This document shows positions 3,222-49,983 of a stretch of 64,000 nucleotides of DNA, piece by piece. This DNA is from Lachnospiraceae bacterium (lineage in GTDB: Bacteria; Bacillota; Clostridia; Lachnospirales; Lachnospiraceae): assembly GCA_021205755.1 (NCBI GenBank), contig JAJPWX010000110.1, positions 19,389 to 83,388 of the forward strand. Reading direction: 5' to 3'. The notes under the pieces were generated by a model that did not search any database, was not told the DNA's origin, and worked only from the letters and a program-made list of their open reading frames with translations. Every line of letters begins with the position of its first letter. Position 1 is the first letter of the stretch. The translations under genes and the position numbers were made by a program.

Positions 3222-3270
3222 GTAACAGTTCAGAACAGCATCGCTGTGGCCTGCTGTTCTGAGTAGTTAC
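3222..3270. repeat. 49-bp palindromic element (short form of the GTAAC...GAACAGCA family)
   Basis: GTAACAGTTCAGAACAGCA-TCGCTGTGGCC-TGCTGTTCTGAGTAGTTAC; 19-bp arms, 16/19 complementary. Confidence 0.8.
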
Positions 3271-11987: not shown

Positions 11988-12614
11988 TTATTCCAGGATA
12001 GTCACGCGCCCATTTTCAACCTGTACCTTGCCGTTTGCAATCAGATGGATCGCCTGAGGCAAAATCACCCACTCTGCCTGCTCCATCACACGGCGCTGCA
12101 GCGCCTCCGGCGTATCTCCTTGTTTCACCTCGACCGCTTTCTGCAGAATAATCGGTCCTGTATCCGTGCCGCCATCCACAAAATGCACGGTCGCCCCTGT
12201 CACCTTCACGCCGCGCGCAAGTGCCTGCTCGTGCACCTTCAATCCATAATAGCCGGTACCGCAGAAGGACGGAATCAGCGCCGGATGGATATTTATAATA
12301 CGGTTTGGGAAAGCATCAACGACACACTGCGGAATCACCACCAGACAGCCGGCCAGGACAACCAGATCTGCCCCCGCCTCCTGCAAAAGAGTCAGAAGCG
12401 CCTGATCAAACTGTTCCGGATTCGGATACTGTTTTCTGGTAATACAGGCAGTCGCAATCCCAGTCTTTTTCGCGCGCTCCAGCGCATAGGCCTTCGTGCT
12501 GTTGCTGATTACTCGCACAACCTGCGCATTCGTCACCTTTCCCGCATCAATCGCGTCGAGAATCGCCTGAAGATTCGTTCCTCCGCCGGAAACCATCACT
12601 GCGAGTTTTAGCAT
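11988..12614 (-). CDS. purN: Phosphoribosylglycinamide formyltransferase
   Basis: [48 protein letters not shown]. Confidence 0.96.
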
Positions 12615-13633
12615 AAGTCTACTCCTTTTTCTCCTGCTTCCACATAACCAATCTCATACACGGTCTCACCTGCAGCCGTGATTGCAGCTTTCGCCTTTTC
12701 CACATCCGCCGGATCCACTGCCACTGCCATGCCGATACCCATGTTATATGTATTATACATCATATGTTCCTCAATTTCACCTTTTTTTGCAAGCAAATGG
12801 AAAATCGCCGGAACCGGATAACTGTCCTTTCGGATCACCGCACGCATACCTTCCGGCAGCATTCTCGGCACATTCTCATAAAATCCGCCGCCGGTGATAT
12901 GGCTGCACGCCTTCACACGAACGCCTGCTTCCTTCACTTCCCGAAGCGCTTTCACATAAATGCGCGTTGGAGTCAGAAGTGTCTCGCCAAGCGTACCGCC
13001 CAATTCCTCGTAATACGTCATAAGCGCTTCCTTTTCCATCGGGAACACCTTGCGCACGAGAGAAAAACCATTGCTGTGCACTCCGGAAGAAGCAATCCCC
13101 AGAATCACATCCCCCGCTTTCAGATCCGCGCCAGTGATCAGGTCCTTCTCATCGACCACACCTACCGCAAATCCGGCCAAATCATACTCTTCCTCCGGCA
13201 TCAGCCCCGGATGCTCTGCGGTCTCGCCGCCAATCAGCGCTGCCCCGGACTGCGCACAGCCCTCAGCTACGCCTCCCACAATCGCCGCAATCTTTTCCGG
13301 AACATTTTTCCCGCACGCGATATAATCCAGGAAAAACAGCGGTTCCCCGCCCGCGCAGGCAATATCATTCACACACATCGCAACACAGTCAATCCCGATC
13401 GTATCATGCTTATCTAAAAGAAATGCCAGTTTCAATTTCGTGCCAACTCCGTCTGTACCGGAAACCAGCACCGGATTTTCCATCTTTTTGACCGCATCCA
13501 TCGAAAACGCGCCGGAAAACCCGCCAATATTCGTCAGCACCTCCGGGCGCATCGTCTTTTTAATATGCTCTTTCATCAGCTCCACCGAGCGATACCCTGC
13601 TTCAATGTCAACCCCTGCATTTTTGTAATCCAT
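12608..13633 (-). CDS. purM: Phosphoribosylformylglycinamidine cyclo-ligase
   Basis: [41 protein letters not shown]. Confidence 0.97.
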
Positions 13634-13655: not shown

Positions 13656-13930
13656 CCAACTATGAGAACAGCAGGCCGCAGACCGCCTTCTCCGAAGGCT
13701 ATATGCCGCTTACGCGTCATATGTCTGTGGCTTGATGGGCGTCTACGTTCCACTTCGGTTGGCGCTAAACGATCGTCCACTGGACGATCAGCGCCCGCCC
13801 ATCCCGAAAAGAAAATACAGCCTTTAGCAGGTGAACCTGCCCATCTCCGCTTCGCTCCGGTCGGTGCTAAACGAGCGCCACTGGCGCTCAGCACCTGTCT
13901 TTTCTTTTCGATGCTGTTCAGAACTGTTAC
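13656..13930. repeat. ~275-bp TIR-bounded multi-hairpin element in the purE-purM gap
   Basis: Left end CCAACTATGAGAACAGCAGGCC, right end TGCTGTTCAGAACTGTTAC (related to the 3222..3270 arms). Internal hairpins at 13685-13699, 13761-13795, 13827-13840 and 13863-13895. Confidence 0.75.
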
Positions 13931-13934
13931 AATT

Positions 13935-14453
13935 TTATTTTGCGCGGCTCTCCGCATAAGCCTTATAACCCACTTCCTGCAGTTTTGCGTCCTTCGCCTC
14001 GACCTGCTCTTTTAATTCTTCTGCATAATCCTTTACTTTCTGCAAGAGTTCAGGATCAGAGGTCGCCAGAATCTTTGCTGCCAGAATTCCTGCGTTCGCA
14101 CCGCCATTGATTGCCACCGTCGCCACTGGTATCCCGGAAGGCATCTGTACAATCGAATACAGGGAATCCCGGCCGCCAAGGGACGTCGTATGCATCGGGA
14201 TTCCGATCACCGGCATCGGGAAAATCGCCGCGCACATGCCCGGCAGATGCGCCGCCATCCCCGCTCCAGCGATAATCACCTTAAAACCTTTCTCTTCCGC
14301 CGTCTTTGCGTATTCATAAAAAACATCCGGCTCTCTGTGTGCGGAAATAATCGTCATCTCATAATCAATCCCAAACTTTTCCAGCATATCCGCTGCCTTG
14401 CTCATCACTGGCATGTCCGAATCGCTGCCCATCACAATACCAACCTTTGCCAT
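13935..14453 (-). CDS. purE: 5-(carboxyamino)imidazole ribonucleotide mutase
   Basis: VGIVMGSDSDMPVM, SAHREPD, GAGMAAHLPGMCAA. Confidence 0.97.
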   Translation of the reverse strand: MAKVGIVMGSDSDMPVMSKAADMLEKFGIDYEMTIISAHREPDVFYEYAKTAEEKGFKVIIAGAGMAAHLPGMCAAIFPMPVIGIPMHTTSLGGRDSLYSIVQMPSGIPVATVAINGGANAGILAAKILATSDPELLQKVKDYAEELKEQVEAKDAKLQEVGYKAYAESRAK

Positions 14454-14492
14454 TGTTCTGCTCCTTTCCGTATTCAAATGACAACTGCTTTG

Positions 14493-49946: not shown

Positions 49947-49955
49947 AATGGTTTT

Positions 49956-49983
49956 CCTGCTAAAGGCTGTTCTGAATAGTTAC
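49956..49983. repeat. Solo end of the GTAAC...GAACAGC element family
   Basis: CCTGCTAAAGGCTGTTCTGAATAGTTAC; CCTGCTAAAGGCTGT occurs exactly (reverse strand) in the 13.8-kb element. Confidence 0.7.

Follow-up and report, generated by a model that had tools for sequence, protein, structure and literature searches.

The spacer between purE and purM in the DNA of a Lachnospiraceae bacterium analyzed here (a stretch of 64 kb, called the window in its full length) is very probably filled by a composite copy of a MITE-type non-autonomous transposon, because copies of the sequence are dispersed, the family has 8-bp target-site duplications (TSDs), and relatives lack the element at purE-purM. The family is multi-copy, dispersed and below 500 bp in size, with TIRs, a TSD of fixed length, no internal transposase gene and empty orthologous sites; the TSD applies at the level of the family, and one TIR of the purE-purM copy is degenerate. 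Thereby, a large repeat family of a gut Lachnospiraceae-like lineage was identified, most probably a MITE, with a measured 8-bp TSD, a cross-genus TIR core and a nested module. Prokaryotic MITEs are described as smaller than 500 bp, with TIRs within 4-30 bp, direct repeats fading with age, intergenic location, a stem-loop transcript and no transposase gene (PMC10969869). Our element shares with them the size, TIRs, flanking repeats, intergenic setting, stem-loops and lack of a transposase gene. The MITEs of this review are typically AT-rich and mainly IS-derived, whereas no parent IS was found for the present family; also, unlike them, the present family has a mosaic build, with separate hairpin modules nested in its copies, and remnants are as short as 49 bp, or 21 bp in other genera.

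The genes at the locus were identified as purE, purM, purN and purD. An earlier note on this DNA had described a ~275-bp unit filling the purE-purM gap, and its coordinates, 13656-13930, proved right for a TIR-bounded and strongly folding sequence. It had also counted at least four hairpins in the unit, but missed two nested hairpin modules. The features at the locus and the relatives in the window are as follows:

13935..14477, minus strand: purE, upstream neighbour in transcription
13656..13930, minus strand (the strand of pur transcription): very probable composite MITE copy, 275 bp, from coordinates, copy search and fold
13913..13930, minus strand: TIR adjoining purE, GTAACAGTTCTGAACAGC
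13844..13895, plus strand: hairpin module 2, TCTCCG...GGTGCTAAACGAGCGCCACTGGCGCTCAGCACC, at the place where the 176-bp core reads GTC
13805..13910, no strand: core stem CGAAAAGAAAATACAG/CTGTCTTTTCTTTTCG, helix 6, with the strongest covariation of all helices
13742..13795, plus strand: hairpin module 1, TCTACG...GGCGCTAAACGATCGTCCACTGGACGATCAGCGCC, lying within the apical loop that the hairpin GATGGGCG/CGCCCATC forms in the 176-bp core
13734..13803, no strand: core hairpin GATGGGCG/CGCCCATC, interrupted by module 1, helix 5 of the consensus fold
13656..13673, plus strand: TIR adjoining purM, degenerate, CCAACTATGAGAACAGCA
12608..13633, minus strand: purM, downstream neighbour in transcription
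3222..3270, no strand: complete 49-bp mini-element (TIR-loop-TIR) of the same family, with a 7/8 TSD CTTTATTC/ATTTATTC (L055)
49951..49983, minus strand: remnant, a single TIR fused to a core piece (CCTGCTAAAGG), without a second TIR
3222-3239 (plus), 3253-3270 (minus), 13913-13930 (minus) and 49966-49983 (minus): TIR matches in the window

The element begins 4 bases past the purE stop codon (13935-13937), and its far end, the degenerate TIR CCAACTATGAGAACAGC, stops short of the purM ribosome-binding site. No credible gene and no transposase gene lie within the 275 bp; two ORFs of 102 and 127 aa that cover the spacer matched no NCBIfam family, in line with the earlier view that it holds no convincing ORF. 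A search of the window against Rfam gave nothing above the gathering score except one tRNA elsewhere in the window. The pur-transcribed strand of the element folds at -125.4 kcal/mol, compared to -92.4 +/- 5.0 kcal/mol for shuffled sequences (z = -6.65). At this copy itself, a TSD is not recognisable (TTCATGAT vs AATTTTAT). Because of the lacking duplication and the one degenerate end, the copy has probably decayed since insertion, and its own insertion therefore rests on homologues and empty sites. At up to three mismatches, four TIR matches are present in the window, compared to 0.12 expected. The two related sequences reported earlier at 3222..3270 and 49965..49983 differ in kind: the former is a complete 49-bp member, the latter a one-TIR remnant without partner.

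In the host genome (4.02 Mb, 136 contigs), 79 aligned segments of the family were found together with 164 TIR matches at up to two mismatches, while the reversed pattern gave none, so that the single-copy occurrence named in the earlier note as a refutation does not apply. The TIRs are ~18 bp long and of the GTAACTRTTCAGAACAGC type, and the copies bounded by them group at sizes of 49-59, 114-115, 176-177, 226-227 and ~276 bp. In the literature searched, the full TIR strings were absent, and their 12-base cores turned up only in 18 unrelated papers, where they are probably primers. The core form has 176 bp; the 227-bp form is the core plus one hairpin module in the GATGGGCG/CGCCCATC loop, and the 275/276-bp form, which includes the purE-purM copy, has a further module replacing GTC of the core. 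Partial matches covering 1-54 and 119-176, considered as ends of a longer element, were rejected as they are contig ends. No match of the family was obtained on phages or plasmids; nine TIR matches in viral contigs are about the chance level estimated for the pattern and the size of the collection.

For the analysis of TSDs, 40 TIR-bounded copies from seven genomes were compared with permuted flanks. A duplication of exactly 8 bp was perfect in 13 copies (permuted mean 0.34, maximum 2) and present with at most one mismatch in 22 (control mean 1.22); flank identity at 8 bp was 75% vs 45% in permuted flanks, and lengths of 2-7 and 9-12 bp reached control level only. The target sites are A/T-rich. 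Among 64 copies with usable flanks, 63 were intergenic as judged by gene calls from a simple script based on codon usage. The 48 copies between co-directional genes showed no orientation bias (21 same, 27 opposite), and control gaps were mostly co-directional as well (27/31). In several copies, the adjoining gene end is overlapped by a few bases (L212, L217, L218, L222, L229 and others), and here the TAA of the TIR probably supplies the stop codon of the overlapped gene.

The purE-purM spacers of the 22 congeners with data are 10-236 bp long and unrelated, and the full element was absent from all 22. As its copies are in turn dispersed, the second refutation named earlier, the same spacer at every purE-purM locus, does not apply either. 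No TIR was present at this site in the closest relative, G015 (87.6-89.6% DNA identity over the two stretches on either side of the spacer), or in 20 other congeners. In G002, a ~30-bp sequence starting with ATAACTGTTCAGAG and ending with AAGTTAC lies at the purE stop codon. Its TIR likeness alone is modest (p = 0.03 in shuffles, uncorrected for 22 spacers), and it is flanked by a perfect 8-bp repeat AAATAAAG/AAATAAAG; because of both together, this TIR remnant probably represents an independent insertion very close to that of the copy in the window. TIR matches are patchy within the genus, with 0 to 160 per genome in the 36 genomes counted. An identical 176-bp sequence occurs at different sites in three species (two in G000, three in G010, one in G047), and G000 and G010 are only ~81-85% identical around purE-purM; in our reading, the 176-bp element has spread recently.

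Two other sequences were observed in purE-purM spacers of the genus. In the spacer of G015 (L062), a 20-bp sequence of the purE 3′-end (GGAGAGYCGCGCAAAATAAA) occurs twice in nearly identical form, separated by an insert of ~48 bp; this insertion is distinct from the element but lies at the same site. The spacer of another congener (L070) is filled by a second repeat family, CTCGCGG...GCCAAATATCC...GGCTACTTGGCTCGTTGC...CGCGGGAATAA (L128, L256, L265), which seems to host the hairpin module as well.

The fold of the core was analyzed in an alignment of 67 distinct ~176-bp copies. The consensus has 55 pairs with 98.4% of cells paired, and double changes occur in 26 of the 55 pairs. Double-change cells numbered 176 compared to 42.1 +/- 4.6 in shuffles, none of the 500 shuffles matched any measure, which is not a probability since the shuffles keep relatedness in place, and the slid controls were all exceeded too. 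Wobbles comprised 17 G-U cells (plus strand) and 23 A-C cells (wobble on the minus strand), both about equally rare beside the 176 double changes and thus without strand bias. Since the wobbles show no strand preference, we infer that the core fold is kept on both DNA strands, or by arm-to-arm correction, rather than as a one-strand RNA. It may even be that the covariation stems from palindrome correction only, by template switching between the arms and without any selection on structure, the element being neutral debris; we consider this a serious possibility of somewhat less than even probability. The 176 double-change cells with only 40 wobble cells, i.e. nearly no intermediates, speak for it, whereas the persistence of bulges and internal mismatches, such as the AAAC bulge of the ~53-bp module, and the almost invariant sequence of helices 2 and 5 speak against it. 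This concerns the fold alone and is compatible with the MITE reading.

A modulation of purE versus purM-N-D expression by the element had been proposed in the earlier note. Because the genes run in the same direction, co-transcription with the pur genes is likely, and the structured spacer may affect the mRNA. A spacer acting as functional RNA or as attenuator, and thereby setting purE versus purM-N-D expression in the pur operon, would agree with the very stable fold of the transcribed strand, the position between co-directional pur genes and the compensatory changes widespread in the family. Yet such a role is very unlikely: the congeners have no homologous spacer at this site, copies of the family adjoin gene pairs that are unrelated, in either orientation, neither a promoter or terminator motif in the element nor an Rfam match in the spacer was found, and wobble changes lack a strand preference. 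With no such motif, no orientation bias and no conserved spacer, regulation of the pur genes is unsupported. For many "structured intergenic spacers" of this lineage, the MITE reading would mean that they are transposon copies and not regulators.

The hairpin module is a ~53-bp repeat in which a hairpin bearing an AAAC bulge comes after TCTCCGCTTCGCTTCGGTC. It had 30 matches in the host at up to two mismatches and 37 at up to three (reversed control: 4 at up to three). Modules lie at several positions inside TIR elements, alone and within other modules, including nesting in itself (L132, L136, L254, L263). Its outer stem had an exact partner in 50 of 62 copies, compared to 108 of 889 for stems exchanged between unlike copies. 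Within the genus, 38 of 47 genomes carried the module, compared to none of 60 genomes from outside; G024 and G003 carry 28 and 13 module matches, respectively, without any TIR element. As it also occurs alone, nested in itself and in genomes without TIR elements, it is an independent, genus-restricted repeat. Tentatively, and with rather more doubt than confidence, it may be seen as a mobile unit entering hairpin loops, its own included, and so forming nested hairpins without TSD by an undescribed mechanism; if so, the nested module would offer a testable case of loop-targeted insertion. One module lies inside an apparent phage tape-measure gene, into which it introduces stop codons (L123, G000:C16:21168-21222).

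BOX and RUP repeats of Streptococcus pneumoniae are intergenic, multi-copy mosaics of reusable hairpin modules with nested insertions, and RUP is linked to IS630. The present family resembles them by description in its modular mosaic structure, nesting, intergenic location and copy number; it differs in its unrelated host group and in GTAAC-type TIRs with 8-bp duplications.

Single-strand Y1 transposition is not known to make a TSD. For the outer element, which has TIRs, the 8-bp duplication refutes a REP/REPIN-type identity with mobilization by a Y1 (RAYT) transposase; altogether we regard such an element as extremely improbable, in spite of the palindromic, intergenic and multi-copy nature of the element, the inner module being a bulged hairpin as in REPs and the two Y1_Tnp genes of the host. 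The module was absent within ~1.1 kb on either side of both Y1 genes, so that, from these two host loci, a REP/RAYT origin of the module was rejected as well. Compared with REP/REPIN elements, the likeness consists in short bulged hairpins in high number, seen in the inner module, and the difference in the missing module near the two Y1 genes and in the target duplication of the outer element. Thus, of the "MITE/REP-like" non-autonomous dispersed intergenic repeat noted earlier, the MITE part holds by copies, 8-bp TSD and empty sites, while the REP-like part is not supported by size, TIRs, TSD and the Y1 loci.

IS66 family elements have 20-30-bp IRs starting with GTAAGCG and 8-bp direct repeats (PMC11946415). 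The ends of our element start with GTAA as well and its TSD has 8 bp, but the fifth base is C (GTAAC) instead of G (GTAAG in IS66). The GTAAC ends together with the 8-bp duplications suggest a putative IS66-like transposase. IS66 as resident partner was rejected, since the host genome gave no match to PF03050 (IS66), and the ends at 30 IS66 loci in congeners differ, with no element TIR among them. No TIR pair enclosing a transposase was found in the draft genomes searched; long TIR pairs at 0.5-3.6 kb, considered as an autonomous element, proved to be only two separate MITEs (L231) or pairs around housekeeping genes. Because all genomes are drafts, with contigs often breaking inside the element, an autonomous element, multi-copy and collapsed, may have escaped the search. 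The family points to a missing transposase.

In the mechanism that we propose, cuts at the TIRs would be made in trans by a DDE transposase, most probably an IS66-like one, and the cut element would be joined into staggered, A/T-rich and nearly always intergenic 8-bp targets. Compensatory changes on both strands of the DNA would preserve the interior palindromic fold, in better agreement with a hairpin or cruciform of DNA, or with correction between the arms, than with a strand-specific RNA. Growth from 176 to 227 and 276 bp would result from the separate ~53-bp bulged-hairpin repeat entering hairpin loops, and shrinkage to 49-59-bp TIR stem-loops probably from replication slippage across the palindrome. 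The purE-purM copy would most likely be a passive insertion, with neither the stop codon of purE nor the ribosome-binding site of purM disrupted, and would form a co-transcribed structured spacer.

A wider scan covered 150 genomes of the taxonomic family. Outside the genus, 30 TIR-like sites were detected in 13 genomes with one to seven each (control: 6), so that single matches may be due to chance. Several of them enclose unrelated interiors and have perfect 8-bp duplications: ctgtaata (L275), gcggtatt (L278), aaattatt (L280), gaaattag (L282) and catcaaat (L290). Because the same TIR core bounds unrelated interiors with such duplications, one transposase type probably served several MITE lineages. 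In addition, 21-bp palindromes of the GTAACWGTTCAGAACAGTTAC type were found in other genera (L281, L282, L283, L285, L288, L289), some with 8-bp duplications, and these are TIR-only remnants.
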